Shown: piece by piece, positions 9,297 through 24,974 of the stretch
Position numbering within the stretch: position 1 is the stretch's first letter
Layout: every line of letters starts with the position of its first letter
Virus record (IMG/VR): IMGVR_UViG_3300013131_000233
Location: 1 to 24,974 of that record
DNA length: 24,974 bases
Origin: a virus
Direction: 5' to 3' (one strand)
Notes under the pieces: model-generated
Seen by the model: the letters and a program-made list of their open reading frames with translations, nothing else
The model's database searches: none
What the model was told of the DNA's origin: nothing
Program-made: the position numbers and the translations under genes

Positions 9297-9640
9297 TGCC
9301 TTTTCCGACAACAACACAACAACGTGGTGATTATGAAGCAGACGTTAAGTTTGCTTATGAATTATTTTTTCAATTCAAATTAAAGAATATAAGTGAGGGT
9401 ATCAATGCTCATCAGTCCTTGTGGCTTCACCATAGAACAAAAAAACTCGATGTGAATTTTATGGGCATACCTTTCGAGGTCGATGTCATAAATATGGGTG
9501 GTAGTGGTGACATCCAAACGGCCTGTATATCTCTCATGTATTGCCAGCCAGATGATATGACGCTGCCTTATCATTGGTTAAGTCAAGAGAGACTTAATTG
9601 GCTTGTTAGCGAAATGAAAACTCACTTAGGTTGGCCATGA
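9296..9640 (+). CDS. Hypothetical protein, accessory cassette
   Basis: A 114-residue protein that I do not recognise. It has no signal peptide or membrane segment. The N-terminal half is helical and charged. The middle has a strand-like segment LDVNFMGIPFEVDVINMGG (about 51-69). The C-terminal part contains two cysteines and a tryptophan-rich helix ending HLGWP. The start codon overlaps the fiber stop (TAATG), so it is probably translated by reinitiation after the fiber, which hints at a role with it, for example as a fiber assembly helper. That is inference from coupling alone. Like the end of the fiber gene it is richer in CpG than the portal region. Confidence 0.6.
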   Translation: MPFPTTTQQRGDYEADVKFAYELFFQFKLKNISEGINAHQSLWLHHRTKKLDVNFMGIPFEVDVINMGGSGDIQTACISLMYCQPDDMTLPYHWLSQERLNWLVSEMKTHLGWP

Positions 9641-9876
9641 ACACTACTATTGTTTTTATTTTTGCAACAATAATCGCAATCATAATCTTTGACATTGTTA
9701 TAATTGCAAAAAAGGGCAAATATGAATCAATCAGTGCCCACGTTATCAGAGCGTCCTATAAATATCCATTAATAGTGCTCCTTTTTGGTATAGTTTTAGG
9801 CCACTTGTTTTGGTCTATGAAAACTGAAGACTGGCAAGGAAAAATAAATTGCCAAGACAAAATCAATCATAATTAA
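9637..9876 (+). CDS. Small two-helix membrane protein, possible holin
   Basis: A 79-residue protein with two hydrophobic segments. The first is about residues 3-22 (Ile/Phe-rich, right after the N-terminus). The second is about 43-58 and contains the motif GIVLGHLFW. A basic loop separates them (AKKGKYES...RASYKYP) and the tail is polar and charged. The frame is open from a TTG at 9631, but TTAGG at 9626-9630 is spaced six bases from the ATG at 9637, making that the better start. It overlaps the previous stop as ATGA. Two-helix topology and size fit class II holins, and small membrane proteins of this kind occur in phage structural regions, but no lysis enzyme is present beside it. The holin reading is a hypothesis. 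Confidence 0.68.
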   Translation: MNTTIVFIFATIIAIIIFDIVIIAKKGKYESISAHVIRASYKYPLIVLLFGIVLGHLFWSMKTEDWQGKINCQDKINHN

Positions 9877-9934
9877 TTTTATATTATTATTTTTTTTATT
9901 GATTTAAACTGTAATAAAAAACATGGAGGTAAAA

Positions 9935-10183
9935 ATGGATAAAACTTTAAAAACCATTCTTGTTGCCTTTATGGTTGGTGGAATAGCAAACGGAATTATA
10001 ACATGGAGAGAGTTTGCTGTAGCACAAAACAAAATTTTAAACATAGAAAAAAGCCAAGAAGAACTAAAAGACGATTATAAAAAATCTCTTGATAAAATTG
10101 ATTCAAAATTAAATAATTTTAGCAATGACATTACCGATCTTAAGGTAAAGACAACTCAGATACATGAAAGAATTATTAAATAA
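9935..10183 (+). CDS. Small membrane-anchored coiled-coil protein
   Basis: An 82-residue protein with one N-terminal hydrophobic helix (about residues 5-22, LKTILVAFMVGGIANGIITW region). A long charged helix follows (about 28-80) with heptad-like spacing of Leu, Ile and Val, predicted to form a coiled coil. The topology, an anchored N-terminus and a helical soluble domain, resembles an inner-membrane spanin or an XhlA-like accessory, although it is short for Rz and XhlA has the reverse order. An earlier in-frame ATG at 9923 is rejected because GGAGG at 9925-9929 overlaps it. That same GGAGG sits five bases before the ATG at 9935. It lies just downstream of the two-helix protein and may work with it. 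Confidence 0.68.
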   Translation: MDKTLKTILVAFMVGGIANGIITWREFAVAQNKILNIEKSQEELKDDYKKSLDKIDSKLNNFSNDITDLKVKTTQIHERIIK

Positions 10184-10199
10184 AAAATAAGGATTGGTT

Positions 10200-10883
10200 G
10201 TGATAGTAACACTTGCAGACATGAAAACTAGGTTAGGGATTTCAGATAATTCTCAAGATGCATTTTTAACCAGTGAAATAAATATAATGACAGAAGCAAT
10301 AAATTCATATTGTGGAAGAGTGTTTGAGCAAGGAAGTTATGTTCAAACATTTTACTCTGATGATTATGAAAACCTTGTAACCAGTAAATGCTTTATCGAT
10401 ACATTTATTTATCCAATAGTCAGCATAACTCACGTTAAAGAAAAACAACAACAGAGCAATGGTTCTTTTGTTGAAACCGTAATTCCTGCCACAGAATATA
10501 GATTAAACAAACCTCTTGGAAGATTAATAAAAACTGAAGTCGGGTCACCTACAGAATGGTTTCAAGAATATGGCCACCCTTCTCTGGTTGAAGTTTCTTA
10601 TTCTGCTGGTTTTGCAACAGTTCCACTTCCGGTTCAAGAAGTTTGTTATGCTCTTGTTGGTGAAAGATATAATAAAAAACAGGCCGGTGTTGATTTAAAT
10701 TTTGGTAGCAATGTTCAAAGAATATCAATCCCTGGTGTTTTTTCTCTGGATTATGATTTTTCACTTCAAACCAATGAAGTGAAAAATACTTTTGGAGCAA
10801 TCCTTGGTGATCAAAAAAACATTCTTGATTTTTACTTATCAGACAGAAGAATTGTTGGAGATATAAGGCCAATTTATGTCTAG
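10200..10883 (+). CDS. Head-tail connector (gp6-like adaptor)
   Basis: A connector ring protein that docks under the portal and begins the neck. The 227-residue product opens with a helical segment typical of HK97 gp6-like and phiE125 gp8-like adaptors: TLADMKTRLGISDNSQDAFL, then helices leading to INSYCGRVFE (about 33-42). A beta-rich middle follows, with YPIVSITHVKE and TEYRLNKPLGRL strands. The C-terminal helical part contains EVCYALVGERYNKKQ. The frame also contains a TTG at 10194, but AAGGA at 10189-10193 would then touch it. The GTG at 10200 has six-base spacing and is preferred. The gene overlaps the next one by eight bases. The family call is good; the start is moderately certain. Confidence 0.82.
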   Translation: MIVTLADMKTRLGISDNSQDAFLTSEINIMTEAINSYCGRVFEQGSYVQTFYSDDYENLVTSKCFIDTFIYPIVSITHVKEKQQQSNGSFVETVIPATEYRLNKPLGRLIKTEVGSPTEWFQEYGHPSLVEVSYSAGFATVPLPVQEVCYALVGERYNKKQAGVDLNFGSNVQRISIPGVFSLDYDFSLQTNEVKNTFGAILGDQKNILDFYLSDRRIVGDIRPIYV

Positions 10884-11196
10884 TTTAAATAATTTATTTT
10901 GTTACATTATAAATCTAAAAGGTAAGACTGTTACGATCAAACGAGGAACCAACGAATATAATGTAATGATGGCACAATCTCATTATTTCAGAAATTCAGA
11001 ATCAATTGAAGAGTCAGTTGTTACCGGCCAGGAATATGTTGTGTCTAAAAAAAGTTTAGACGATGTTACTTTTCCAGTTCCACCAAAAATCGGTGACTAT
11101 GTTTTATTTCCAGAAAAGCAAAGGGCCATAAAAGAAGTATCTCCAATGGAAGGTCTTAAAGGCATTGTTATAGGATATAGGCTGAGGTTTGGTTAA
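10876..11196 (+). CDS. Head closure / head-tail adaptor protein (stopper-like)
   Basis: A 106-residue small, beta-rich protein with an SH3-like or barrel character: GKTVTIKRGTNEYNV (about 15-29), a variable loop, then PVPPKIGDYVLFPEKQRAI (about 68-86) and the final strand GIVIGYRLRFG. The motif in which a Pro-Lys-Ile-Gly-Asp-Tyr-Val sequence precedes a barrel strand is typical of phage head-closure proteins of the gp7/gp16 type, which seal the connector after packaging. It overlaps the connector gene by eight bases and touches the next gene through TAATG, so the three are probably translationally coupled. The assignment rests on size, fold impression and synteny, not on a catalytic motif. Confidence 0.68.
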   Translation: MSSLNNLFCYIINLKGKTVTIKRGTNEYNVMMAQSHYFRNSESIEESVVTGQEYVVSKKSLDDVTFPVPPKIGDYVLFPEKQRAIKEVSPMEGLKGIVIGYRLRFG

Positions 11197-12038
11197 TGGA
11201 TGTAGCTTTTTCTTACTCTATTAAAGACTCAGGAAAAGGCGTTAATGTTAAAGACCTTGAAAATGATCTAACTGGTGCAAAAACATTTGAAAATTTTTTA
11301 ATAACATTAAAAAAGTTCCATTTAAAAACGTCAAGAAGTGTATTAAAAGAAGAACAGGTAAAAGGTTTTGATAAATACCCTAGAGTTATTGTTGATAATA
11401 GAAAAGATGTTCCAATAATAAATGTTAAAGATTTTGGTAAAATAGAATTTTTTGCAAGGGCCGTTGTGTCTGAATCTATTTTACAAATATTTGATGAAAT
11501 AGAAAAAAGATCACCAGTTGACACAGGTCAATACAGGGCAAGTAATGTTGTTTTCTTCAACAAAAAACTTGTGGCAAAAAATAAAGCAGAGTTGAGAACA
11601 TTTCTTGAGACACACCAAAAAACAGTTGGTTTCAAATTAAAAGACACCATTAGGTTTATTAATACAACTCCATACGCAAGAAGACTTGAATATATGGGTG
11701 GCAGAAGATCGCTAACTGGTGACTTTAAGGGAAGTAACCGTGTTTTTGGTGGAAGAAAAATAAAGTCTAAAAAGACTGGAAGGATATTAAAGAGGCCTAA
11801 TGGAGCATATTATTTGGCCTTTGTTCTGGCAAAAAATAAATTTAGTGGAATATCAAGATTTATTAAATTTGTTTTCTTGCCAAATGGTGCCGATGGAATA
11901 AACATTGATCCATTGCCAGGTGAAAAACCATTGGTTTTTAAAAAAGGTAAAGGTGCAGGTAGGCCCTATCTTTTTCCGTCAATTATTATAAGATTGTCGG
12001 ATCGGGGAATAATAGAAAAAGGTGTGGAGTATGAGTAG
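11196..12038 (+). CDS. HK97 gp10-like neck / tail completion protein, long form
   Basis: A 280-residue neck protein. The diagnostic gp10-like pattern is present: a helix ending in EKRSPVDTGQYRASN (about 107-121), then NTTPYARRLEYMGG (about 155-168), and near the C-terminus GRPYLFPSII. These match the 'sPvdTG.lr.s', 'apYa..lE.g' and 'rpf..pa' blocks of the family. It is roughly twice the usual length of about 140 residues. The extra material is an N-terminal region of about 90 residues and an internal basic segment (about 170-205) with many Lys and Arg. It overlaps the following gene by eight bases. The job is probably to help join the head and tail or complete the tail end; the function of the extra parts is unknown. 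Confidence 0.78.
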   Translation: MDVAFSYSIKDSGKGVNVKDLENDLTGAKTFENFLITLKKFHLKTSRSVLKEEQVKGFDKYPRVIVDNRKDVPIINVKDFGKIEFFARAVVSESILQIFDEIEKRSPVDTGQYRASNVVFFNKKLVAKNKAELRTFLETHQKTVGFKLKDTIRFINTTPYARRLEYMGGRRSLTGDFKGSNRVFGGRKIKSKKTGRILKRPNGAYYLAFVLAKNKFSGISRFIKFVFLPNGADGINIDPLPGEKPLVFKKGKGAGRPYLFPSIIIRLSDRGIIEKGVEYE

Positions 12039-12495
12039 CCTTAACGTAAGAAATGATATTAAAGCTTTTTTTGCCATTGAAGCACCAACGGAAAATATTA
12101 TTGATATAACTGCCATTTATGGCGAGTTGTCTGATGCCTTACTGGATAACACTCCATCGATAGGGCCAGAAGACAATTGGGTTGGTATTGATTTTATTCC
12201 AAGTGACGAAGAACCAGTTGGTTTGCATGCTAACAACACCCAGGGAAGATACAGGGAATATGGAATTGTAATGATCCATGTTGTCGAAAAGGTTATTAGT
12301 GGAGTAGATTTTGTCGATAGCATACTCCAAAGAAGTGAAGCGATCAGAGATAGTTTTAGAGGGCAACGGATTAATAATATTATTATTCAGTCGGTTACTC
12401 CACCAAACTTTAAGTCAGGTGCAACGCTTCAAATGGAAGACGGTTATCAGTCAGCTACATTTACTTTAGCGTATTATGCTGACATAAATTTATAG
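12031..12495 (+). CDS. Tail terminator protein (DUF4128-like)
   Basis: A 154-residue protein in the usual tail-terminator slot, immediately before the tube gene. It probably caps the tube when the tape measure is fully covered and presents the tail to the head. The sequence begins with a helix (NVRNDIKAFFAI). It has the pattern GRYREYGIVMIHVVEKVISG (about 69-88), a helix DFVDSILQRSEAIRDSFRGQ (about 90-109), and a final strand YQSATFTLAYYADINL, a topology like gpU-type and DUF4128 terminators. A GTG at 12022 is in frame but would put the ribosome site inside the gene. AAGG at 12019-12022, eight bases from the ATG at 12031, supports that ATG. It overlaps the previous gene by eight bases. Confidence 0.72.
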   Translation: MSSLNVRNDIKAFFAIEAPTENIIDITAIYGELSDALLDNTPSIGPEDNWVGIDFIPSDEEPVGLHANNTQGRYREYGIVMIHVVEKVISGVDFVDSILQRSEAIRDSFRGQRINNIIIQSVTPPNFKSGATLQMEDGYQSATFTLAYYADINL

Positions 12496-12538
12496 TTGTG
12501 TTTAAATTAATTATTATTTTTAAAAAAGGACAATAAAA

Positions 12539-13723
12539 ATGTCATCATCAAACAGAATCAGAATTACTTCTATAGCAGAATCAACCTATGGCGTAACTCC
12601 AGGTGTGGGGAATTTTAACACAACAAGATACACTTCTGAAAGTTTGTCTGGGACTCCAGAAACTACAGAATCACAAGAAATTAGATCAGACAGACTTTCT
12701 TCTGGCCAGACTGTTGTTGGCCTGACTGTTGGTGGAGATTTAAATGGCGAATTGTCGAAAGATGCAGCCTTTGAAGCTTTCTTAGAATCTGCTATGTATT
12801 CAACATGGATTACAAGTGTTGCGGTAAACGCAGACCTTGATGTTGATGTTGTAAACAAAGAATTAACCAGGGTGGCAGGAAACTGGAACAGTGATGTTTT
12901 TGTTGGTGCCGTTTTAACTCTTACTGGTTTTGCAAACTCTGTAAACAACACTCAAGTAATGGTTATGGAAATTGTTTCAAACACAGTAATTAAATTTGCT
13001 GGCCCAGACACCATGGTTGATGAAAACGATACTGGAAATACTTTTAAAGTGGCAGATTATTTGGCCATTGGAACAACAACAAAATCATTCTCAATGGAAA
13101 AGGCCTTCCAAGATTTAACAAACAAAGCGATCAATTACACTGGTATGATTGTTGGAAGTTTGTCTTTAAATATTGCCTACGGTTCAATAGCAACATATTC
13201 ACTCAGCTTTAGTGGTAATGGCCATGAACCAGTTGATGCTGCTGCCGACTTTATGACAGATGGAAGAACCATCAACGCAGCTTCAACAACCAATACTCTT
13301 AATGGTTCAGTTGATATGCCATTTTTCTGTAATAGCGCAGGTGGAAATTTTGAAGACTCTCCATTCTGTATTCAGTCAATCACAATTAACTTGAATAACA
13401 ATTTAAGGCCACAAACTTGTATAGGCCAGGCTGCCCCAGATTTTCACAATGCTGGAAAAGCTGGAGTTGAAGCATCAATGACGGCTTACCTTGAAGACTC
13501 TGATTGGGCCTTATTGGATAGCAAAATAACTCAAGAACCATTTAAGGTTGGTGGTATCGTTAAGAACTCTTCTGGTGGTTATGGTTTTTATATTCCAGCA
13601 TTACAAGTTAGTTTTGACGATCCAGCTTCAGCAGGTGAAAACCAAGACGTATTCTTAAATATGTCTGGTGTTGGAAAAGTTGGTTCAAACAGCGAAAAAT
13701 CTCTTTACATTTTCAGATTCTAA
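12539..13723 (+). CDS. Major tail tube protein
   Basis: A 394-residue tube subunit of the Phage_tube_2-type family, which stacks as hexamers around the tape measure. The N-terminus SNRIRITSIAESTYGVTP (about 4-21) followed by YTSESLSGTPETTESQEIRS (about 31-50) is a highly characteristic opening for this family. GLTVGGDLNGELS (about 61-73) then matches the conserved block before the body of the beta sandwich. It is longer than minimal tube proteins and may carry an inserted Ig-like or decoration domain (about 95-155, rich in Val, Asn and Asp). AAGGA at 12526-12530, eight bases from the ATG, and a 43-base gap upstream set it apart from the overlapping connector genes, in keeping with strong expression. 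Tail assembly chaperone genes follow. Confidence 0.9.
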   Translation: MSSSNRIRITSIAESTYGVTPGVGNFNTTRYTSESLSGTPETTESQEIRSDRLSSGQTVVGLTVGGDLNGELSKDAAFEAFLESAMYSTWITSVAVNADLDVDVVNKELTRVAGNWNSDVFVGAVLTLTGFANSVNNTQVMVMEIVSNTVIKFAGPDTMVDENDTGNTFKVADYLAIGTTTKSFSMEKAFQDLTNKAINYTGMIVGSLSLNIAYGSIATYSLSFSGNGHEPVDAAADFMTDGRTINAASTTNTLNGSVDMPFFCNSAGGNFEDSPFCIQSITINLNNNLRPQTCIGQAAPDFHNAGKAGVEASMTAYLEDSDWALLDSKITQEPFKVGGIVKNSSGGYGFYIPALQVSFDDPASAGENQDVFLNMSGVGKVGSNSEKSLYIFRF

Positions 13724-13752
13724 TTAACACACACACTAAAAACGGAGGGACT

Positions 13753-14160
13753 ATGCAATCTAATTTGGACGCACTTTTTAAAACAAGCAAAGAACTTGAG
13801 AAATCTGGTAGGTGGTATGAGATTAACGACCGAACCTCTTTCCTGGTTAAAAGATATGGTGGTTCAAATTCAAAAAAGCTTGAAGAAAGTTTTGCAAAAC
13901 ATTACAGACCTTACGCTGCCATAATCGAGAGAAATGGCTTACCTGAAGAAAAAACAAATGAAATTTTGGCGACGATCTTTGTAGAAAGTTGTTTGATTGA
14001 CTGGAAAGGAATTGACATTGATGGAAAAAAAGATGTTCCATACAATCAAGAGTTGGCAATTAAACTATTCCAACTCCTTCCAGATTTGCTGAAGACTCTT
14101 ATGGAGTATGCACAACAACCTGGATACTACAAGGAAGAGTTAGAACAAGCGGGAAACTAA
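13753..14160 (+). CDS. Tail assembly chaperone, short form (gpG-like)
   Basis: A 135-residue helical, acidic/basic mixed protein between the tube and tape measure genes, exactly where lambda G lies. It should bind tube protein and the tape measure during tail assembly and then leave. There is no catalytic motif; the helices WYEINDRTSFLVKRYGG and FAKHYRPYAAIIERNGLPEE resemble tail assembly chaperones of siphophages. It has the strongest ribosome site in the area (GGAGG at 13744-13748, five bases from the ATG), fitting the excess of G over GT. Its last codons, GGA AAC before TAA, form a slippery heptamer with the preceding G that predicts a longer -1 frameshift product. Confidence 0.85.
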   Translation: MQSNLDALFKTSKELEKSGRWYEINDRTSFLVKRYGGSNSKKLEESFAKHYRPYAAIIERNGLPEEKTNEILATIFVESCLIDWKGIDIDGKKDVPYNQELAIKLFQLLPDLLKTLMEYAQQPGYYKEELEQAGN

Positions 14161-14186
14161 TAAAAAGATACCTTCTTTGGTATCTT
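14151..14186 (+). promoter_or_regulatory. Programmed -1 ribosomal frameshift signal (slippery site plus stem-loop)
   Basis: The heptamer G GGA AAC (14151-14157) is in the correct phase, X XXY YYZ, with the gpG-like frame and lies immediately before its TAA. Seven bases downstream is a perfect 8-bp stem, AAGATACC (14165-14172) with GGTATCTT (14179-14186), enclosing a six-base loop. The -1 frame is open from here to 14558. Lambda and most long-tailed phages use such a shift (GGGAAAG in lambda) to make GT. The stem could be read as a weak terminator, but no T-run follows directly and its spacing fits a frameshift stimulator. Confidence 0.9.
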
Positions 14187-14558
14187 GAGTTTTCTGATAG
14201 TTTAGAATTTTACTACAATTTTTTACTTCCTAATGGAAAAATAACTCCAGACAGAATGGAACCAGAGATAGGGCCATTGTCATTCTACGTTCAATGTTTT
14301 TTTGAATTAAGCACATCAAGGCAATCTGGCCTTGGTGTTGCACCTATTTCATTTGAACAAATATATAAATTTGCTATTATTAATGAATTAGAGGATTATC
14401 ACTCTTTTAATTATTTAATAAGAGTTTTAGATGGGTGTTACTTAAAGTTTCACTCAGAAAAACAAAAGGCCAAACAAAATGCCTCAACAAACAGAAGTCA
14501 GGGCAATACGGATAGAGGTAAAGTCGTCGGGGCAAGGCGAAATAAAAAGATTAAATAA
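14157..14558 (+). CDS. Tail assembly chaperone frameshift extension (T part of gpGT-like fusion)
   Basis: This is the -1 frame continuation of the gpG-like gene. After the slip at 14151-14157 translation would continue as LIKRYLLWYLEFSDSLEF and so on for 133 residues, giving a GT-like fusion of 268 residues. An ATG at 14256 exists in this frame but has no Shine-Dalgarno, and 33 codons of open frame precede it, so I do not treat it as an independent start. The extension has a conserved-looking helical part (FYVQCFFELSTSRQSGLGVA) and a basic tail with KAKQNASTNRSQG and ARRNKKIK, as expected for a domain that binds the tape measure. Its last 80 bases overlap the tape measure gene in another frame. 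Confidence 0.85.
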   Translation, partial: LIKRYLLWYLEFSDSLEFYYNFLLPNGKITPDRMEPEIGPLSFYVQCFFELSTSRQSGLGVAPISFEQIYKFAIINELEDYHSFNYLIRVLDGCYLKFHSEKQKAKQNASTNRSQGNTDRGKVVGARRNKKIK

Positions 14559-16704
14559 AAATCTTGTCGATCTTAATAAAAATGTTAAGTCAATGACTTC
14601 TGGTTTTAGTTTTTTAAAAACTTCTTTCTATGGGCTTATTTCTGCTTTTGGTATTTCTCAATTAAAAACAATGGCAGATTCTTTTCAGTTGATAAACGAT
14701 AGAATAAAAGCATTAACCTCAAACTCTGATGAAGCACAAAGAATATTTGATGGATTGTTTCAATCTTCAAAGTATTTAAGAACAAGCTTTGATTCAATGG
14801 GAACAAGTTTTTCAAGATTAAATCTTGCTCTTGCAGAATCGAGAATTTCATCTGAAGCAATGCTTGGATTAACTGTTTCATTGCAAAATACATTTAAGGT
14901 GGCAGGAACAGGAATTTCAGAAACAACAAATACAATAATTCAGATTGCACAAGCATTGGGAACTGGAACAATTAGAGGTGACGAGTTCAGATCGATCATG
15001 GAACAAAACACTGTATTAGCTCAATTACTTGCCAAAGAAATGGGCGTTACAACTGGCCAATTAAAACAATTATCACAAGAAGGTAAATTAACTTCTGATG
15101 TTATGGTTAATGCCTTGGCAAAAAGTTTCGATGAAACAAATATGAAGGCCAGGGCAATGGGAACAACATTTGAACAGGCCATAGCAATAGGAATGGATGC
15201 TGTTAGATATGAAATAAACGAATTGAATAAACAATTTGATATAAGTGGGAAATTTGCCAAGGGTATAATTTTTATTACAAACAACATAGGTCTTTTTGCT
15301 GGTGCAATAACTTCACTTATTGCCACCGGAGCGTTGTTAAAATTTGTCACATATTTAAAGGCAATTGAGTTCAGTGTTTCTGGTTTGGCAAAAAGCACAG
15401 GTTGGGCCTTATTAATATTTGGACTAACTCAGATCGTGGCAAATTTTGATTTGGCAGCAGCATACGCAAATAAGTTTTTCCTGGTTCTTCAAGATGGTGT
15501 GTTTACTGTTCTTAAACCTCTTGCAAATTCTCTGATTGATTTTTTAGGTGACTCAAGTTTGGCAAAAAAAATAATTGGAAGTGAAAAAGACGTTGAACTG
15601 GTTAAGAATTTTTCAAAAGCGTTCATTGGTGTTGCAAGCAAAAATGTTAAAGATGATCTGGCAAAAGTTAATGCTGAAATAGAGAAGTTAAGAAAACCAA
15701 AAACTGAAACAAATTTTGAAGATCAGTTGTTGAGATATAAAAAGGCTTTACAAGATTTTGCAAAGTCTTATCGCTCTCCAGTTGATAGAACAAAAACTCC
15801 ATTCTATGAAATAAATAGATTGTTAAGAGAAGGCATAATAACTCTTGAAGAGTACAATAGAAGATTGTTTGCAATAAGAATTGATATAATTAATAAAAAA
15901 ATCGAAAAAGGAACCGATGATCTGGCCGACTACCATAAAGAGCTAAGAAAGATAAACCAGGAAATGGTTTCTATGGGCCAAATATTCTCACTTAATGAGC
16001 AAGCAGCATTAGGTTTAAGAGATGGACTTGTTAGAGTGGCAACAGAGTATGGAAATGTGGCCCAACAATTATCAAACACTGTTTATGATGCCTTCAATAA
16101 ACTTGAAGATGCTATTTATGAATTTACCAAAACTGGAAAATTAAGCTTTAAAGATTTTACAGATTTTGTAATGGAAGAATTGACAAGAATAATTATTAGA
16201 GCGGCCCTATTGGCACCATTATCAAATATAGCTGGAAGTTTTTTAAGTAGTTTTGGTGCTGCTTCTGGTTCTGGTGCTGGAACAGCAGGTGCTACAGATT
16301 TGGCGTCTGGTGCTGCTGCTGGAACTGCATATAATGGTAAAGCATTTTTTGGTGGAAATGTTATACCGTTTGCCAATGGTGGAATTGTTGACAGGCCAAC
16401 ATATTTTGGAATGTCGAGAAACAGAACCGGACTAATGGGTGAAGCTGGCGCAGAGGCGATACTTCCACTTAGAAGAGACTCAGAAGGAAGACTTGGTGTT
16501 TCCACAGAAGGCGGTGGAACCAATGTTATTGTCAATGTAATTAATCAATCTAATGGAAGCGTTCAACAAAAAGAATCTACAAACTCTAATGGCGATAGAG
16601 TTATTGATATTATTATTCTGGATAAAATTAAAACAGCTATAGCAGAAGGGAAGCTTGATAGGGCAATGGGTGAAACTTATGGCCTAACGAGAAGGGGTAG
16701 ATAA
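14479..16704 (+). CDS. Tape measure protein
   Basis: Sets tail length and forms the core around which the tube assembles. The 741-residue product has a coiled N-terminus (AIRIEVKSSGQGEIKRLNKN, about 9-28). It then has the conserved tape measure domain with GTGTIRGDEFRSIMEQN (about 161-177), LAKEMGVTTGQLKQLSQEGK (about 184-203) and an AMGTTFEQA block (about 226-234). Two hydrophobic stretches follow (about 262-295 and 308-325), which may enter the host membrane. The C-terminus is glycine-rich with NGGIVDRPTYFGM and GLMGEAGAEAILPL, the gpH-type tail that is often processed. At about 1.5 angstrom per residue the tail would be near 110 nm. The ATG overlaps the chaperone extension by 80 bases, and the gene ends in a TAATG junction with the next. 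Confidence 0.95.
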   Translation: MPQQTEVRAIRIEVKSSGQGEIKRLNKNLVDLNKNVKSMTSGFSFLKTSFYGLISAFGISQLKTMADSFQLINDRIKALTSNSDEAQRIFDGLFQSSKYLRTSFDSMGTSFSRLNLALAESRISSEAMLGLTVSLQNTFKVAGTGISETTNTIIQIAQALGTGTIRGDEFRSIMEQNTVLAQLLAKEMGVTTGQLKQLSQEGKLTSDVMVNALAKSFDETNMKARAMGTTFEQAIAIGMDAVRYEINELNKQFDISGKFAKGIIFITNNIGLFAGAITSLIATGALLKFVTYLKAIEFSVSGLAKSTGWALLIFGLTQIVANFDLAAAYANKFFLVLQDGVFTVLKPLANSLIDFLGDSSLAKKIIGSEKDVELVKNFSKAFIGVASKNVKDDLAKVNAEIEKLRKPKTETNFEDQLLRYKKALQDFAKSYRSPVDRTKTPFYEINRLLREGIITLEEYNRRLFAIRIDIINKKIEKGTDDLADYHKELRKINQEMVSMGQIFSLNEQAALGLRDGLVRVATEYGNVAQQLSNTVYDAFNKLEDAIYEFTKTGKLSFKDFTDFVMEELTRIIIRAALLAPLSNIAGSFLSSFGAASGSGAGTAGATDLASGAAAGTAYNGKAFFGGNVIPFANGGIVDRPTYFGMSRNRTGLMGEAGAEAILPLRRDSEGRLGVSTEGGGTNVIVNVINQSNGSVQQKESTNSNGDRVIDIIILDKIKTAIAEGKLDRAMGETYGLTRRGR

Positions 16705-17057
16705 TGGCAGAAACATTTCCAGCTTCACTGGCACAAAAACTTCTCGAATCTGGTTTCTCTTACGATAAAGGTTCCACAGTTGTTAGGTCAAGCAATGATA
16801 CTGGCCCAAATAAAGTCAGAAGACGTTTTACGGCACCAATAAACACTATTGCTGGTTCAATAGAATTAAACTTAAATGATTTTAACACTCTTGAGGAATT
16901 TTACGACACAACTCTTAATGGTGGAGTGAAAACATTTAACTACAACCATCCTATTACTGGCGTTGTAACAGAGTTTAGATTTTTAACTGAATATAATATG
17001 ATTCCGATTGGTGGAGAATATTTTCTAGTCAACTTCCAATGGGAGATAATACCATAA
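16704..17057 (+). CDS. Minor tail protein (lambda gpM position)
   Basis: A 117-residue tail-tip protein in the slot held by lambda M, directly after the tape measure. The sequence has VRSSNDTGPNKVRRRFTAPI (about 26-45), then a beta-rich body with FNTLEEFYDTTLNGGVKTFN (about 60-79), HPITGVVTEFRF and a final tryptophan strand VNFQWEIIP. The charged 'GP.KVRRRF' block followed by 'F..FY...L..G...F...HP' is a pattern I associate with phage minor tail proteins of this position. It probably forms part of the ring linking tube and tip. It overlaps the tape measure by one base and is one base from the next gene, so it belongs to the same coupled string. There are no cysteines or membrane segments. Confidence 0.72.
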   Translation: MAETFPASLAQKLLESGFSYDKGSTVVRSSNDTGPNKVRRRFTAPINTIAGSIELNLNDFNTLEEFYDTTLNGGVKTFNYNHPITGVVTEFRFLTEYNMIPIGGEYFLVNFQWEIIP

Positions 17058-17058
17058 A

Positions 17059-17535
17059 ATGCCAAGGCAATTATCAAACAACTTATTGTTCGAGATGTTG
17101 GAAAACGATAGCAATGATCCGTTTCTTGCTTTGCTAACTTTAAATCATGATGACTTTGATCAACCAGTTCGATTGGTTAACAACACCGTAAACATTGATT
17201 CAAGAGGTGAAACTTATTTAGCTTTTCCATTTAAGTTTGTCCTTTCAACAGATGATGGCGAATCTGATCAGTATGTTAAAATCGAAATGGATAACAGTTC
17301 ACTTCTATTAATGGAAAAACTAAGATCAATAACTTCACCTGTAACTGTTACAATAGAAATGGTTTTGGCATCAACACCTGGAACAGTTGAAGTTGGGTTG
17401 GGTGAATTAAAACTGAGAAACATTGCCTATAATGCACAATCAATATCTGGAACATTATCATTAGATGACTTTTTAAACACGGATTTAACAAGTGAATCAT
17501 ATTCTCCAACAAGCTACCCAGGAATCTTTTCATAA
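17059..17535 (+). CDS. DUF1833-family minor tail protein (gpL-like position)
   Basis: A 158-residue tail-tip component. Conserved DUF1833 features appear in order: FLALLTLNHDDFDQPVRLVN (about 22-41), SRGETYLAFPFKFVL (about 48-62), MDNSSLLLMEKLRS (about 77-90), VEVGLGELKLRNIAYNAQSI and the terminal SPTSYPGIFS, where the family ends in a Pro-Thr...Pro-Gly-Leu-Phe motif. It occupies the position of lambda L but contains no cysteine. So, unlike lambda gpL, it cannot carry an iron-sulfur cluster. It likely forms part of the tail-tip scaffold between the tube and the hub. The NlpC/P60 gene starts inside its 3' end in another frame. Confidence 0.85.
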   Translation: MPRQLSNNLLFEMLENDSNDPFLALLTLNHDDFDQPVRLVNNTVNIDSRGETYLAFPFKFVLSTDDGESDQYVKIEMDNSSLLLMEKLRSITSPVTVTIEMVLASTPGTVEVGLGELKLRNIAYNAQSISGTLSLDDFLNTDLTSESYSPTSYPGIFS

Positions 17536-17893
17536 TTTGATTGGGATTTCATACAAAGAAAAAGATTGCTATGAAATACTAATTGATTTTTACAAACAGG
17601 TATTATCTGTTGACCTTGATATTCTTTATAATATTAAGAGGCCTACAAACACAGAGATAAAAAACCTTGTTGGAGATGAATCTGGAAAATTTATAAAAGT
17701 TCATAATCCTCAATTTGGTGATATTATTTTGTTTAACATCATTGGCCTTCCGTGTCATATCGGTGCGTATTTAGATCGAAAAACTTTTTTCCATACTACA
17801 GTAAAAACTGGTAGCATCATAGATAGATTTGAAAATTGGCAAAAAAGAGTAATAGGTTTTTATAGGCATCCAAAATTGGTGATCAATGAGTAA
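17492..17893 (+). CDS. NlpC/P60-family tail peptidase (gpK-like)
   Basis: A 133-residue cysteine peptidase of the NlpC/P60 fold, likely cutting peptidoglycan cross-bridges during DNA entry. The catalytic triad is visible: C26 in KDCYEILIDFY, H89 in CHIGAYLDRKTFFH, and H101 twelve residues later, the same spacing as H119 and H131 of E. coli Spr. The GDIILF strand before the histidine is also typical. Lambda K has an extra Mov34/JAB domain upstream; it is absent here. The start is a GTG at 17492 inside the DUF1833 gene, which provides the helix normally preceding the core. A TTG at 17537 is the alternative and would lose it. The stop overlaps the next start by eight bases (ATGAGTAA). Confidence 0.85.
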   Translation: MNHILQQATQESFHNLIGISYKEKDCYEILIDFYKQVLSVDLDILYNIKRPTNTEIKNLVGDESGKFIKVHNPQFGDIILFNIIGLPCHIGAYLDRKTFFHTTVKTGSIIDRFENWQKRVIGFYRHPKLVINE

Positions 17894-20800
17894 CATCAGG
17901 GCAAGAATAAATCCATTGTCTGGAAATGAAATACTTCTTTCATATAATAAAGAAAAAAAATTATATGAATACTTTGATGATCTTCTCGAAAAATATCCAA
18001 ATAGAAGGGAAGCTGAAAAATATTTTAAAATATTTATCAACGGTTATGAAGTTGACAAAAAGCATTGGAAATATATTAAACCAAAGCCAAGCGTTTCAGT
18101 TGTCATAGCTCTTGTTCCTGGTAACGATCAAACCATAGGACAGTTGGCCATTATATCTGCTGTTATTGCCGTAACAGTTTTTACTCCAGTTGGCCCAGCA
18201 GGTTTTACAGCAGGTCAAGCATTTTTAATTAGGGCCGGTGTTGCCATTGGTGCAACATTGTTGGTTAATTCTTTAATCACACCACAGGCAAATGCATTTT
18301 CTTTTGGTGAGACATCACAAGATGAAGGTCAAACTTTTTCGATAGCTTCTCAATCAAACATTTTTAAGAAATATGGAAAGGTTCCTAAAGTTTATGGCAA
18401 GCATAAAATGTTTCCTATTGTTGTTGCTAATCCATATACCGATCTTGAACTAGATCAAAGAACAAAAGAGTTGGTTCAATATTTTTATTGCATTTATGAC
18501 TTTGGATTAGGGCCAGCGTTTGTTGAAGATTTAAGAATTGGCGATACTCCAATAAATAACTTTTTAGATGTTGTTCAAAATGATGATGGAGGGTTTGATG
18601 TAGTAAATGCCAGGTATAGATTTGTTGATCCGAACAAACCAGACACGGATGAAGGTGTTTGGGATGAAAAAGTTAATAAAACATTTGAACTTTATAAAGG
18701 CGATGTAACACAATCTGAAGTTAGTGTTGCCATAAACAGGAACAGAGATAATGACCTTGGTTCAACTGTTGCCGATTATCAGGCAGTAAGAAACTGTGAA
18801 GCAAATATTAGAAGTGAAAAACAGGAAATTGTTCTTGGTTTTATTTTTCCACAAGGCCTTAAAACATTTGCAAGCAACGGTTCTAGTGGCCAGAGAAACG
18901 TACAAATTCTGGTTGAGTTTGCTGAAGATGGAACAGAAGATTGGAGAAGGTGTGACGATCTAAATTATGTTGATGACTTTGAGTATTATGAGCAAGAAAG
19001 TTCAATGGCGAAAATTCCACAGAACTTATGGAATGACACAAGTTTAAATCAGGATTTTTTACATGAACTAGACAGCACAAGTTTTTACACTGGAGTCATT
19101 TCTTCAAATACAGAAATAACTAGCGAAGTATTCTTTTCTGATAGATACAATTTCCTTGATGAAGACTTTAGATACCCTGAAGGAAAACAGAATGTTCCAG
19201 ATACAAACATCTTCTGGCCAATAGGTAATTATGGTTTTTTTATAAGACAGTATGGAATAAGAAAAGGTTACACAACAAAGATTTTGTTAAACATACAAGC
19301 ACCTGTTGGTTGCAACATTTTTATTAACGGCCAAGAGATAGGAACTGTGACTGGCCATACAGCTTATATGTCTGGTTACTACAACCATATAACTCCAGCT
19401 AAAACATCTGTTGTTTTATTTATTGATTATGTGAGACGTAATTTTGGATTAAATACAAATACGTTTTACTATAAAGACCATGAAGCACTTGGCGACAATA
19501 TACCAAACAATGATTTTAATTTCTTTGAAATAAGAGTTCCACAAGATGGAACAAAAACATTTTATGGTAACCAGCAAAAGCCAATGTATGGTTCCATTAG
19601 GTTTGCTCCAAAATCAAAAGAATCTTTAAAGGTAAGAGTAACGAGAATAAGAAGTTATCTTGGTTACGCTTATCAGATACTAGACAACATGACATGGTTG
19701 TATTTAACAACTAAATTTGAAACTCAAACAATCTCCACAGACAAACGGCATGTTTTTCTTGAATTAAAAATAAAGGCCACAGATCAACTTAATGGTGCGA
19801 TCCAAGATTTGTCTGGTATCGTAACATCTGTTTTAGACGTTTACGATGAAAACACAAGCACATGGAATAAAGAATTATCTGAAAATCCTGCATGGATATT
19901 TGCTGACATTTTAAGTGGTGAAGTTAATAAAAGATCGATAGCAAAATCAAGATTAGATACAGCTTCCCTGGTTGAATGGGCAGAGTATTGTGACGAGGTT
20001 CCAACAGCACCAAGTAACATTGATGCTTATATTAACCAAAGATTTAAATGTGGTTTTATTTTGGATTATAATGCCACAGTTATTTCTTTGATAAACCAAG
20101 TGTGTTCATCGGCCCAGGCATCGATGTCGGTAATTGATGGGAAGTATGGCGTATTAATAGACAAACAAAAAACAAACCCAGTTCAAATATTCACTCCAAG
20201 AAATTCAAGTAACTTTGCTTCAAATAGAAAGTATGTAGATATTCCACATGCCCTAAAAGTTAAATACATTGAACCGTCTTCAAATTGGGAAATTAGAGAG
20301 AAGATTGTTTACAGTGATGGCTTTAATGAATTGAACGCAACAACCTTTGAAGACATCGAGACATTTGGCGTAACCAATAATGAACAAGCATACAGATATG
20401 GTAGATACATGCTTGCTCAAGGAAAATTGAGGCAAGAAAATATTTCAATCAATGTTGATTTTGAACATCTGGTTTGTGTTCGAGGCGATTATGTAAAGAT
20501 CACACAAGATGTAATGATGGTCGGTGGAGTTCCGGCCAGGGTTAAAGCTGTTTCAGGTAATGACATAACAATTGATAATAAATTTACAACTGAAATTAAC
20601 ATTGATTATGGTTATACGTTCAGAACAAAAACTGGTGAAGTAAAAACATCAACCATGACAATCAACTCTCCAACAACAGCAGAGGTTGATGGTGATATTC
20701 CAGAAGTTGGTGATTTAATAGTTTGGGGTGAAGTTGGAGAAATAACTTTCGATTGTATTGTTAAATCTATAATTCCATCCGATGATTTAACAGCACAGCT

Positions 20801-22304
20801 TATTCTGGTTGAAAAAAATGATGCAATATTTGATGCTGAATCTTCAGATGAAATTCCTTTATACAATCCGTTAATATCTTCAATTAAAGATAGTGAATCT
20901 TCACCGCCATCGGCAGTTGAAAATTTAGCAATTACAGATAATAGTTATGATTGCAATGGTTCACAGTATGAATATTTTGTTGACATGTCATGGTCTATAC
21001 CACTTGGAACAGTTTATGAAGTCTTTGAGGTTTATGCTGATTTTGGCCTTGGTTATTCTATTGCTGGTTACACTAACAATCTAAATTATAAATATATTGT
21101 TGATGCTGGCAATTTAAGTATTGAACATAAGTTTAAAGTTTTGGCAGTTAGCTCAACTGGTGCAAAAATATCTTTAGGTCAAGCATTAGAAGTTTCTGCC
21201 ACTCCATTGCCTAAAACATCTGCGCCAAAAAATGTTGAAAACTTTAATGCAAATATAACCAATGAAACATTACAGCTTGATTGGGATTTAATAGATGACT
21301 GTGATGCTGATGGATACTTAATAAGATTCTCTCCATCGTTAACTGCTACCTGGCAATCATCGATTCCATTGCTGGAAGTAAGTAAAAATACTTCAATGAT
21401 AAATTTCCAGGCAAGAGTTGGAACTTATTTTATTAAGGCCAAAGACTTTGCTGGTAACGAATCAGCAGATGCAGCACAAGTTAAAACTTCAATACCTAAT
21501 TTATTTAATTTAAATGTAGTTGAAGAAACAAATGACTTCCCAACATTTCCTGGTGCTTTAGATAAGGTTGAAGATTTTAGTGGAAGTTTAATTTTGGAAG
21601 AGGCCATATCAGGCGGCCCAGGCGTTATTCAATATTATCCTGATGGTGAATATTTCTATGAAAACTTCTTAGACCTTGGAGATGTTTTTACTGTTAGACT
21701 TCAATCGCTGATAGAGGCCGAGGGCTATACCATTGATGATCTGATGTCAAACTGGAATACATTGTCTGAAGTGGCAGTTTTAGGATCAGTTCAATCCAGC
21801 GATTGGAATGTTGAGACATATTACAGGGCCAGAGATTCCATGGTTGTTATGGCCGATTGGACAACGCTTGACTCTGTTGCAACACTGGCAGCAGGCGCAG
21901 AGGCCGATTGGATGGCATGGAGAAAATTTACGGTTGGAGATTTTACTGGCCGACTGTTCCAATTTAAATTGAAACTTATTTCCAATGTTCCAAATGTAAG
22001 CCCTAGAGTTATTGATGCTGAAATTAGGTCTGATATGCCTGATAGAATTGAATCTTACAATAATCAGTCAGCACCAAACACAGGTTTAACCATTACATAT
22101 TCACCAGCGTTCTATGGGCCAGGAACAACTCCGACCATTGGGATAACTCAGGACAACGCACAACAGGGTGATTATTATGAAATTACAAATAGAACTTTAG
22201 AAGGATTTGACATACAATTTTTTGATAAAGATGATGTTGCTGTAGCAAGAACATTTGATGCGATGATTAAAGGTTATGGAAGAAACTACACTTCAACAAT
22301 TTAA
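17886..22304 (+). CDS. Central tail hub / host-specificity protein (gpJ-like with gpI-like N-terminus)
   Basis: A 1472-residue tail-tip protein, the largest in the window. Residues 1-80 look like a small beta-grasp domain ending FINGYEVDKKHWKYIKPKPS. Residues 84-132 form Gly/Ala-rich hydrophobic helices like those of lambda I, so I and J seem fused. FSIASQSNIFKKYGKVPKVY (151-170) opens the J body, matching the 'N......iP.vyG..r..P' signature. The body (about 170-1000) should form the beta hub that closes the tube. Two fibronectin III-like domains follow (about 1007-1100 and 1113-1195), the second with LDWDLIDDCDADGYLIRFSP. The end, with TRTLEGFDIQFFD-like and MIKGYGRN strands, resembles a common C-terminal domain of such proteins. 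It probably contacts the receptor directly or carries the distal fibers encoded next. Confidence 0.92.
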   Translation: MSNIRARINPLSGNEILLSYNKEKKLYEYFDDLLEKYPNRREAEKYFKIFINGYEVDKKHWKYIKPKPSVSVVIALVPGNDQTIGQLAIISAVIAVTVFTPVGPAGFTAGQAFLIRAGVAIGATLLVNSLITPQANAFSFGETSQDEGQTFSIASQSNIFKKYGKVPKVYGKHKMFPIVVANPYTDLELDQRTKELVQYFYCIYDFGLGPAFVEDLRIGDTPINNFLDVVQNDDGGFDVVNARYRFVDPNKPDTDEGVWDEKVNKTFELYKGDVTQSEVSVAINRNRDNDLGSTVADYQAVRNCEANIRSEKQEIVLGFIFPQGLKTFASNGSSGQRNVQILVEFAEDGTEDWRRCDDLNYVDDFEYYEQESSMAKIPQNLWNDTSLNQDFLHELDSTSFYTGVISSNTEITSEVFFSDRYNFLDEDFRYPEGKQNVPDTNIFWPIGNYGFFIRQYGIRKGYTTKILLNIQAPVGCNIFINGQEIGTVTGHTAYMSGYYNHITPAKTSVVLFIDYVRRNFGLNTNTFYYKDHEALGDNIPNNDFNFFEIRVPQDGTKTFYGNQQKPMYGSIRFAPKSKESLKVRVTRIRSYLGYAYQILDNMTWLYLTTKFETQTISTDKRHVFLELKIKATDQLNGAIQDLSGIVTSVLDVYDENTSTWNKELSENPAWIFADILSGEVNKRSIAKSRLDTASLVEWAEYCDEVPTAPSNIDAYINQRFKCGFILDYNATVISLINQVCSSAQASMSVIDGKYGVLIDKQKTNPVQIFTPRNSSNFASNRKYVDIPHALKVKYIEPSSNWEIREKIVYSDGFNELNATTFEDIETFGVTNNEQAYRYGRYMLAQGKLRQENISINVDFEHLVCVRGDYVKITQDVMMVGGVPARVKAVSGNDITIDNKFTTEINIDYGYTFRTKTGEVKTSTMTINSPTTAEVDGDIPEVGDLIVWGEVGEITFDCIVKSIIPSDDLTAQLILVEKNDAIFDAESSDEIPLYNPLISSIKDSESSPPSAVENLAITDNSYDCNGSQYEYFVDMSWSIPLGTVYEVFEVYADFGLGYSIAGYTNNLNYKYIVDAGNLSIEHKFKVLAVSSTGAKISLGQALEVSATPLPKTSAPKNVENFNANITNETLQLDWDLIDDCDADGYLIRFSPSLTATWQSSIPLLEVSKNTSMINFQARVGTYFIKAKDFAGNESADAAQVKTSIPNLFNLNVVEETNDFPTFPGALDKVEDFSGSLILEEAISGGPGVIQYYPDGEYFYENFLDLGDVFTVRLQSLIEAEGYTIDDLMSNWNTLSEVAVLGSVQSSDWNVETYYRARDSMVVMADWTTLDSVATLAAGAEADWMAWRKFTVGDFTGRLFQFKLKLISNVPNVSPRVIDAEIRSDMPDRIESYNNQSAPNTGLTITYSPAFYGPGTTPTIGITQDNAQQGDYYEITNRTLEGFDIQFFDKDDVAVARTFDAMIKGYGRNYTSTI

Positions 22305-22319
22305 TGTGAGGATTAATTA

Positions 22320-23597
22320 ATGGATACAGGAATTTTTTCAAATATAAATCCGTTGGTGACTAGCGGAACTCAATTGGCCTCACTTTTAAATTTATTTAAA
22401 GACGGTGTTGCCAATAATCAAAAAACAACAGATGGAACAAGGCCAACAAATTTAACATCTGGAGGGTTGTGGGTTGATGCTCAGAACTCTCCATATTATG
22501 TTTTGAAACAATACGATGGAACAACAGATCATACATTATTGACTTTAAATATTTCTACAGGAATTTTAAGTCTTGGAAGCCAGGCCGATAGTTTGACTAT
22601 AACAAAAAACAGCGATGATTCTGTTGGCCCGTATTTAAATTTATTTAAAAGAAGAACCGCTGGGACAGGACAAACTCAAGATGGAGATACTTCTGGTGAG
22701 TTAAGATTTTCTGGTAGAACAGATGCAGGCGTTGAGGAATTATTAGCAAAAATTCAAGCTTATGTTACAGATGATATAACATCTTCAAATCAAGGTTGTG
22801 ATTTATTATTTTTCACAACACCTGATGCTGGTGCCACTTTAACTCAAAACATGACATTAAAAGGAAGTGGATTATTAGGCATTGGTGAAACGTCTCCAGC
22901 GGCAAGAGTTCATGTTAATGGGAGTTCAACAACTGGAAACATTAAAAACGAATTAGTTGAAGATTCAACAGTTGGAGCTACATTAACTCAAAAGAAAAGA
23001 AGATCAACAGGTAATGGCCAAGTATTAAATAATGACATCATTTCTAATTATATATCAACAGCGCATGACCAGAACGGAGCAGAGCAAACTACATCTAAAA
23101 TAGAATCTAAAGCAATTCAAAATATTACAAATACAGAACATGGAACTGAAATTAACTTTTACTCAGTCAAGACAGGCGAAACATCATTGTCTTTGGCAAT
23201 GAAATTAAAAGAAGGAAAAATATTAAATGCCGATGGAAAACATTTATTAGAATATTCTGAATCTTCATTACTTCAAGACGCTTCGGCCACAAGAAATTTA
23301 ATAACATTAGATGGTTCTGTTTACGGTTGTTACGTTATTGAAGCATTGTTTTACGGCAGAGACAACACTCCAGAGACAAGGGCACAAAAAACAACAATTA
23401 ATGCAGTTTATAATTATAATACATCTCAATGGATTTATTCTAAAAAAGATGAAACTTTAACTGACACAGCAAAATTAATTGAATATAGTTTTACTAACGG
23501 AGCGTCTTTGGTTATTGACTATGTTAACCAATTCGTTAATGCTAATTTCTTGGATGGTTCTATTCATTTAATCATTAAAAGAGCATTGAGGGCATAA
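22320..23597 (+). CDS. Putative tail fiber / distal tail protein
   Basis: A 425-residue fiber protein following the hub gene. The N-terminal section (about 1-60) may attach to the tip. LTSGGLWVDAQNSPYYVLKQ (about 45-64) resembles short beta motifs common in phage fibers. LLGIGETSPAARVHVNGSS (about 197-215) is a variant of the 'GIGTTSPSARLHV' motif widespread in fibers, which often precedes a C-terminal S74 chaperone domain. No such domain is obvious here. The rest is rich in Thr, Asn and Ser with beta-helix character and ends in a basic tail IIKRALRA. GAGG at 22307-22310 lies nine bases before the ATG. The gene runs to within one base of the next start, so the two are probably co-translated. 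Confidence 0.75.
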   Translation: MDTGIFSNINPLVTSGTQLASLLNLFKDGVANNQKTTDGTRPTNLTSGGLWVDAQNSPYYVLKQYDGTTDHTLLTLNISTGILSLGSQADSLTITKNSDDSVGPYLNLFKRRTAGTGQTQDGDTSGELRFSGRTDAGVEELLAKIQAYVTDDITSSNQGCDLLFFTTPDAGATLTQNMTLKGSGLLGIGETSPAARVHVNGSSTTGNIKNELVEDSTVGATLTQKKRRSTGNGQVLNNDIISNYISTAHDQNGAEQTTSKIESKAIQNITNTEHGTEINFYSVKTGETSLSLAMKLKEGKILNADGKHLLEYSESSLLQDASATRNLITLDGSVYGCYVIEALFYGRDNTPETRAQKTTINAVYNYNTSQWIYSKKDETLTDTAKLIEYSFTNGASLVIDYVNQFVNANFLDGSIHLIIKRALRA

Positions 23598-23598
23598 T

Positions 23599-24974
23599 AT
23601 GAATAAAAATTTAATTACATTAATTTTGACATTATTAATTATTCCAACGGTTTTATTGGCATCTGGAGGTACAACATATTTAGATGACGATAAAATTAAT
23701 TTTGGTAGCTCTGCACTTGGAACCAGAAAATTATGTTTTGATGAAACACCAGATTCAACTTCGGTTTGTTTAAATGTAAATCCATCAACCGATGATGCAA
23801 CATTATTTACAGATAATTTTACAATTGGTGAAGGGATTGATGAAGACCTTAAAATTAAATTTGACTTTGGTTCTGGAACGGGAAATGGATACATTGGATA
23901 TGATACAACCAGCAAAAAGATTGTTGTAAGCCATGATGGGAGTGATGAATTTTCACTAAGTCGAGGCGGTGCCGGTGGAGAAAACTATTTATCCGATGGT
24001 TCATTTGAGGCCGCATTTTCTGGAACATGTAACACTGGAACATGTACTAACCCTGACACAGGGGCCATCCAAGAAGGAGCTAAAGCGTTAAATATTTCTT
24101 TGTCATCTCAGATTGGTGACGTTGAATATTGCGTGACTAATACCGCATGGGCCGGACAAAGCATGACCATTAGTGCGTTTTTAAAAACGTCTAGCGCGCT
24201 ATTTAATTTTTGTTCTTCTGACGATAGTGGTTCAGGCGATGACTGTCTCGATGTTTCGTCCGAAGATGTTTTTAAAGAATATTCTCTTACCCGCATCATA
24301 CCAGCGTCAGGAAAAGGCTGCTGGCGTATAACGTCCGACTCGTCTACTACTGCTTCAATTCGTGTTGATGCTTCTAAAATATTTAATTTGAGGCCGCAGG
24401 CGGTTTCTAAGATTTATAAACAACAGTTAAAACATAGTGCTTCTGGCTCATCGCTAACGGACAGGACAGGCGAATTAGAGTTCAATACTTCTAATTTTAC
24501 ATTAACAGGCGACGACTTAGTGACGCTTGATAACTCGGACGGTACTAGAACAAAGTTTATATGCAAAAAAACTCAAGGTTGTATTTTTAGGGGTTATTTT
24601 AATGGCGAGGCTTCGGACAGTACAACTTCTCAAGCTGCGGTTGTCTATAAAGACATTGCAGAAGGTGCGTTTACTGATTTGGCTGTTTGTGGGAATAGCT
24701 CTGTCCACCCGACGAGTTCTTACGAAACTACTTTAACTTCCGCATTTAACTGTAAAGTGGCGTATAACGGATTTATCACAATCAGATTTTTTCAAGACTT
24801 AGCAAATACTTCTACGGCTGCCCATGTAAACATGGAAGTTGAAAGCATTGAGCAAGATCAAGTAATAACTTCACAAGGATTTAACGGCGCGGGTTATAAA
24901 TTTACTAACCTTCCCGGGTGCGATACTACAATAACCTCCGGCTCCTTCACAGACGTAAGTGACGTTGATTGTAC
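23599..24974 (+). CDS. Fiber-like protein with signal peptide, cysteine-rich (partial, runs off window)
   Basis: An open frame from the ATG at 23599 to the window end, 458 residues without a stop, so the 3' end is missing. GAGGG at 23588-23592, six bases before the ATG, supports the start. The N-terminus is a clear Sec signal peptide: positive MNKN, hydrophobic LITLILTLLIIPTVLL, then ASG, with cleavage likely near residues 21-22. Residues 23-110 resemble fiber proteins (YLDDDKINFGSS, FGSGTGNGYIGYDTTSKKI). From about 118 the sequence ENYLSDGSFE looks like the start of a carbohydrate-binding-type beta domain. Fourteen cysteines occur in 458 residues, against two in the preceding fiber, as in exported disulfide-bonded proteins. 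After about 23960 CpG rises sharply. It could be a host-receptor protein or an exported conversion protein. Confidence 0.75.
   Translation, partial: MNKNLITLILTLLIIPTVLLASGGTTYLDDDKINFGSSALGTRKLCFDETPDSTSVCLNVNPSTDDATLFTDNFTIGEGIDEDLKIKFDFGSGTGNGYIGYDTTSKKIVVSHDGSDEFSLSRGGAGGENYLSDGSFEAAFSGTCNTGTCTNPDTGAIQEGAKALNISLSSQIGDVEYCVTNTAWAGQSMTISAFLKTSSALFNFCSSDDSGSGDDCLDVSSEDVFKEYSLTRIIPASGKGCWRITSDSSTTASIRVDASKIFNLRPQAVSKIYKQQLKHSASGSSLTDRTGELEFNTSNFTLTGDDLVTLDNSDGTRTKFICKKTQGCIFRGYFNGEASDSTTSQAAVVYKDIAEGAFTDLAVCGNSSVHPTSSYETTLTSAFNCKVAYNGFITIRFFQDLANTSTAAHVNMEVESIEQDQVITSQGFNGAGYKFTNLPGCDTTITSGSFTDVSDVDC

Follow-up and report, generated by a model that had tools for sequence, protein, structure and literature searches.

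What is a gene with a predicted export signal doing in the tail-fibre operon of a phage, when tailed phages are taught to assemble in the cytoplasm? The window that we analysed, 24,974 bp long, spans an entire viral record and contains a lambda-like late region with genes for terminase, capsid, portal, connectors, tail tube, tape measure, J and fibres. The central tail fibre, or host-specificity protein, J (1472 amino acids; 17886 to 22304, plus strand, like the other features of the fibre region) matches the PHROG family phrog_31, 'central tail fiber J' (6e-82), and has relatives in 435 phage records. The first fibre gene (22320 to 23597) carries a canonical N-terminal docking domain, recognized by a docking-domain profile and by alignment, with no signal peptide and no cysteine in the domain. 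Behind it lies the fibre-like gene P0001 (23599 to 24972), whose 458 codons in the ORF list are cut by the contig end. We put the odds at about even (roughly 0.5) that P0001 is a virion fibre, an export-signal member of the tail-fibre operon.

Elsewhere in the window, positions 7974 to 9296 encode a collagen-repeat protein with an SO2946-like C-terminal domain (Pfam, 6e-14). Its gene adjoins the portal and connector genes, and the product is a second fibre-like protein and a candidate head fibre. No tRNA was found in the window or its relatives. 'Candidatus Dependentiae' was considered as host and rejected: a close J relative (52%) lies on a short contig of one MAG (L095), which is probable contamination or a misbinned phage because the MAG, at 2.4 Mb, is too large for a phylum whose other listed members measure 0.7-1.7 Mb, and because just 1 of that phylum's 101 genomes has J.

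Start and predicted leader of P0001

The first fibre ORF ends in TAA, and the ATG of P0001 follows at 23599 after a gap of 1 base, as the initial annotation had described. A Shine-Dalgarno-like GAGGG (23588 to 23592), within the 3' end of the first fibre gene, lies 6 nt 5' of this ATG, and the frame is still open at the contig end. The only alternative starts in codons 1-70 are TTG at codons 10 and 20, neither with a clear Shine-Dalgarno sequence, so the leader is not easily skipped. P0001 is the second gene after J and, like its counterpart in the related locus L019, belongs to the part of the late operon directly downstream of J. Because the 1-base gap contains no promoter, expression is expected to be late; the region also contains no terminator-like site.

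The N-terminus reads MNKNLITLILTLLIIPTVLLA-SGGTTY. Codons 1-21 (23599 to 23661) would form a classical Sec signal peptide, with K3, an uncharged hydrophobic core of ~16 residues and a predicted cleavage site between VLLA and SGG, beyond which there is only beta/Thr/Ser/Asp-rich sequence. Leaders were called by rule (n-region charge, h-region, small residue at -1, lipobox absent) and not by a trained predictor; by this rule P0001 has a type I signal peptide and lacks a lipobox. The strong signal sequence noted at the outset holds up by this score, which only 1 of the 367 genes that precede J in related loci equals. The N-terminal hydropathy is likewise the highest among the tail genes of the window, and is exceeded by that of a small membrane protein (9631 to 9876). 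From these sequence features, P0001 is very probably exported.

The hydrophobic N-terminus could instead be an uncleaved anchor lodged in the tail tip of the virion or in the inner membrane, and the Leu at -3 of the cleavage site, in place of the ideal Ala, would suit this. However, a core of ~16 residues followed by SGG is short for a membrane anchor, and the 14 cysteines discussed below fit oxidation outside the cytoplasm. We regard an anchor as improbable, and the leader-bearing docking-domain fibres of related phages, described below, argue further against it.

A homologous leader gene in a related locus

In L019, whose J is 48% identical, the order is the same: J, a docking-domain fibre and then a 600-aa leader gene starting MKKLIIALLAIIPLVIIA-EGG. 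Leader and mature N-terminus align with those of P0001 (46% over 87-93 aa), and the two mature N-termini have in common the motif FGSSALGxRxLxFDxxPDxxSxxLxVNPxTD. In P0001 the mature N-terminal segment spans residues 22-124 (23662 to 23970), with residues 23-65 homologous to L019. Because L019 shares leader, mature N-terminus and gene position, the P0001 start is not an artefact. The initial annotation had allowed that homologues might start downstream of the hydrophobic stretch; the L019 homologue includes it. A second leader-bearing gene of L019 (13168 to 14118), four genes after J, encodes 316 aa of charged, coiled-coil-like sequence.

L020 has a leader gene one place further downstream. 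L017, which is close by J, has no leader gene despite a complete downstream region, and the gene is therefore accessory. Across the related loci, leader-bearing genes of at least 150 aa, called by our simple rule, make up 13 of 168 genes after J and 3 of 367 before it (Fisher 4e-5), although the 13 include several genes for lysis or other functions and the enrichment is only a pointer. We also observed a leader and a fibre-like AEGGTG motif in L078 (2301 to 2948), about ten genes upstream of J. L112 (3921 to 6846), a phage-like contig in a Nitrospinaceae MAG, has consecutive leader-bearing fibre-like genes after J, one of them with a QHDY-type docking sequence behind its leader.

A composition step inside P0001

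GC3 in P0001 is ~12-18% up to codon ~90 and reaches 30-37% beyond codon ~120, so that it roughly doubles from codon ~90-130 on; by position, the step lies at 23870 to 24000 (~13-18% before, ~35% after). The leader and the first ~90 codons match the phage and L019. From the step we conclude that the 3' two-thirds of P0001, and thus most of the coding sequence, is a separately acquired, swapped module of foreign composition. The idea that P0001 is not an isolated insertion of unrelated DNA thus stands for its phage-like 5' part and fails for the remainder.

A second contig, IMGVR_UViG_3300014720_000364 (L004), is identical to the window over 9077 to 24077 save one base (99.99%), and confirms the gene junction, the leader and the composition step. 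As far as 24077, P0001 is therefore no accident of assembly. An untranslated frame, or a chimera joining two phages, would account for the sharp GC step inside the ORF, and strain variation may have broken the assembly at 24077, the end of L004. Yet the second contig runs through the leader and across the step, L019 has a homologous leader gene at the same place, the Shine-Dalgarno sequence is good and 458 codons are open, which makes an artefact of assembly or annotation very improbable. The step and the end of L004 together resemble a joint left by recombination in a variable fibre tip. An exact DNA search of viral_contigs, made to extend the contig to the 3' end of the gene as had been proposed, found no extension.

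Cysteines, predicted structure and family searches

The fourteen cysteines counted in the initial annotation are present, all in the mature part (positions 46, 57, 144, 149, 178, 205, 216, 241, 322, 328, 364, 385, 441 and 458), where the cysteine content of the remaining ORFs in the window would predict 2.7 (Poisson P 9e-7). Twelve lie in residues 125-458 (23971 to 24972), a cysteine-rich, predicted all-beta part with its end missing, for which no relatives were found. An AlphaFold2 model of low confidence (mean pLDDT 36) has a single helix of at least 4 residues, at 3-21, and then strands only. In this low-confidence model Cys46 and Cys57 (23734 to 23769) fall on predicted strands 43-47 and 56-60, in a register that fits a cross-strand bond. 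At the aligned positions L019, whose gene is also leader-bearing, has two isoleucines, so both residues have changed together; the searches turned up no unexported counterpart of P0001.

P0001 matches no profile family convincingly. Pfam gives no match at E<=1, including to beta-barrel or S-layer families, the best PHROGs match reaches only E=0.005, and phmmer returned 0 hits in the PDB. The docking-domain profile does not pick up P0001, although it does match the neighbouring first fibre. No Pfam S74 domain occurs in the part present, which lacks the C-terminus. Searches that included tblastn of phages found no close homologues beyond L004 and L019, and the middle segment has matches only at E>=3. 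Foldseek matches of the model, the best being to a Bdellovibrio MAT fibre (E 0.009, TM 0.12), were not taken as evidence. The label 'fibre-like', the weaker part of our description, draws on gene position, the all-beta prediction and homology to the L019 leader gene.

Docking-domain fibres with predicted leaders

The docking domain, a helix and a beta meander (GxxxP..W.D..YDG), normally starts at the Met of the first fibre; its profile pattern is MSQxxFGTI..SG..L...L....AL.S.HxG...P.Y...G..W.DT...W.LK.YDG. Canonical fibres of this kind (PHROG phrog_523 tail collar fibre, phrog_24121 and phrog_21249) occupy the same operon place after J as P0001, and have neither signal peptide nor Cys pair, whereas P0001 lacks the docking domain and bears a leader. 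They share docking domain and Collar tip with a set of relatives in which a signal peptide directly precedes the docking domain: L061, L085, Bradyrhizobium P0004 and P0005, and the Nitrobacteraceae loci L167 and L197-L200. L167, L197, L198, L199 and L200 are prophage-like loci, and their genomes belong to the same family as L129 (Tardiphaga). The leaders of L085, L167 and L200 failed the rule and were recognized by eye. The domain model is confident (pLDDT 88), and in BFVD its fold resembles that of phage proteins labelled 'tail collar' and 'tail fiber'; neither profile nor fold found a PDB relative at E<=0.001.

L061 begins MIRKILLSLALLVALALPASA-SQYDFGTINPSTTSG, compared with MSQYDFGTIVPTTKSG of L066. 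Its predicted cut, between ASA and SQYDFG, restores exactly (M)SQYDFG, the N-terminus of the unexported L066 fibre, which is hard to reconcile with an uncleaved anchor. In a non-redundant set, 11 of 68 docking-domain fibres bear a leader, clustered in Bradyrhizobium-type prophages plus L061. The earlier premise that fibres lack signal peptides thus describes the majority and fails for these 11. At least two cysteines occur in the docking domain of 9 of the 11 with a leader, versus 0 of the 57 without, and the appearance of such pairs only behind leaders is a further point against an anchor. One member of the pair sits at the helix end (S-C-x-x-G), and the other adjoins the invariant Trp (W-C-D or C-W). 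In the L197 copy of P0005 both cysteines are replaced together (G/E), and seven further alphaproteobacterial docking domains, fetched independently, have neither leader nor Cys pair.

This association is limited by relatedness. Most leader-bearing docking domains form one Bradyrhizobium-type clade, joined by L061, and on a tree of docking domains the leader needs at least two changes, the best count being three. The independent leader/Cys pairs, mostly in the expected direction and with none against, come to 2-3, too few origins for significance once relatedness is counted, which would take at least six. Searched for as an exact DNA pattern, the Cys-pair docking motif turned up nowhere but in the record of L061 itself and at one site outside any fibre ORF. 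Outside the non-redundant set, L082 (15402 to 16266) and L088 (15308 to 16175) encode low-scoring leaderless docking-domain proteins with 11 Cys in ~285 residues, an exception to the leader/Cys rule.

Export might serve timing and not disulfides, the periplasm storing a fibre so that it does not stick to host glycans or tails before lysis. The leader-bearing docking domains without a Cys pair (the first fibre of L197, and L199) are what this would predict, but most have gained the pair and P0001 has 14 Cys. As the sole reason for export, timing seems unlikely by a wide measure, and it is compatible with a fibre loaded from the periplasm.

Leader-bearing fibres and virions

The complete Bradyrhizobium prophage ppBdUSDA122-1 has two docking-domain genes, P0005 (WAX24264.1) and P0004 (WAX24263.1), both leader-bearing; the annotation is 'hypothetical protein' for one of them and 'tail fiber protein' for the other. 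At its end P0004 carries a Phage Tail Collar domain (Pfam 2.9e-10), and it has matches among the tail-fibre PHROGs. The host is reported to shed siphophages, with deep prophage read coverage in the particle fraction (PMC10127595). Similarly, the sole docking-domain fibre of the 64-kb L061 record is leader-bearing. For a phage with J and a docking domain that would export every fibre, loading from outside the cytoplasm at lysis is most simply assumed. Given leader, Cys pair and a prophage whose only docking-domain fibres bear leaders, such fibres probably leave the cytoplasm, are oxidized in the periplasm and dock on virions when the cell lyses. The ppBdUSDA122-1 fibres resemble P0001 in signal peptide, many Cys, position directly after J and fibre architecture. 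They differ in keeping the docking domain, and have no sequence similarity to P0001.

These relatives strengthen two suggestions of the initial annotation: export with disulfide bonding, which is well supported at the level of sequence by the leader, the 14 Cys and the relatives with leader and Cys pair, and loading from the periplasm, by docking domains behind signal peptides.

Virion fibre or surface protein

If P0001 is a virion fibre, it would be translated together with the late fibre genes and directed by its leader through Sec into the periplasm, where the leader would be removed and the Cys pairs of its beta domains oxidized. At lysis the finished protein would meet tailed particles assembled in the cytoplasm and, judging mainly from the relatives with leader and docking domain, might attach, as an accessory receptor-binding fibre, either to the tail tip or to the first fibre. 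Its tip module would be exchanged between phages, as fits a receptor-binding protein. Features of the window that favour this are the leader, the 14 Cys, the 1-nt spacing, the lack of a promoter or terminator-like site and the tip mosaicism; among relatives they are the gene order in L019, the leader-bearing docking domains, the L061 cut and the Collar tip of P0004. Counted against it are the lack of a docking domain in P0001, the leaderless docking-domain fibre that the window already has, the absence of the gene from L017 and the 2-3 origins behind the leader/Cys association.

P0001 might instead be a cell-surface or secreted moron or adhesin that uses the fibre operon for expression, remains on the infected or lysogenic cell and there masks receptors or promotes adhesion; surface display, with superinfection exclusion, is a possible role. 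A leader without a virion docking domain and an accessory distribution would suit such a protein, and the missing docking domain keeps the preference for the virion over the cell surface modest. There are also precedents. Lambda Lom is an exported outer-membrane protein encoded in the J/tail-fibre region (PMC12309495), so an exported gene there need not be virion material; Lom is a beta-barrel of the Lom / Ail family, whereas P0001 has no such Pfam match at E<=1. PblB of streptococcal prophages is a tail-related adhesin, one version of which, in pneumococcus, has a predicted signal peptide (PMC4508584), although host (Gram-positive) and sequence are unrelated to P0001. Bdellovibrio MAT (mosaic adhesive trimer) proteins are signal-peptide fibres with exchangeable tips and phage-fibre-like parts that act as surface adhesins (PMC10769870). 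MAT proteins share signal peptide and fibre with P0001, but are chromosomal adhesins of a predator, whereas P0001 belongs to a phage late operon. Their signal peptide is followed directly by a conserved beta-rich domain of ~130 aa, and their C-terminus is an S74 chaperone or a known NS74 tip; only the tips are in the PDB for comparison.

Several observations weigh against a surface role. P0001 lacks its own promoter and would be expressed late, when surface display helps little. It has no anchor, whether lipobox, beta-barrel or S-layer family, and neither the window nor the related contig G004, each of which may be a fragment, yielded an integrase. Late expression should favour a function in the virion or at lysis over a lysogenic-conversion moron. 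We therefore consider a surface or secreted protein rather unlikely, and prefer a fibre destined for the virion.

Implications

In the open-access literature searched, tail fibres with signal peptides are not described for any Gram-negative phage, and we found no report of a periplasmic assembly route for tailed phages or of the leader-bearing fibre proteins in particles. We tentatively propose, at a little under even odds, that some phages of Gram-negative hosts send fibres through Sec, form their disulfides in the periplasm and mount them on tails only at lysis, the gene in this window being one of several independent cases. P0001 and its relatives suggest that some phage fibres mature in the host periplasm before reaching the virus particle. 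If so, host Sec and Dsb would become phage host factors, and fibre loading would be coupled to lysis. Disulfide-stabilized fibres would then become a searchable class, with leader, docking domain and Cys pair as its genomic signature and Bradyrhizobium diazoefficiens USDA 122, which sheds virions without induction, as a laboratory system.
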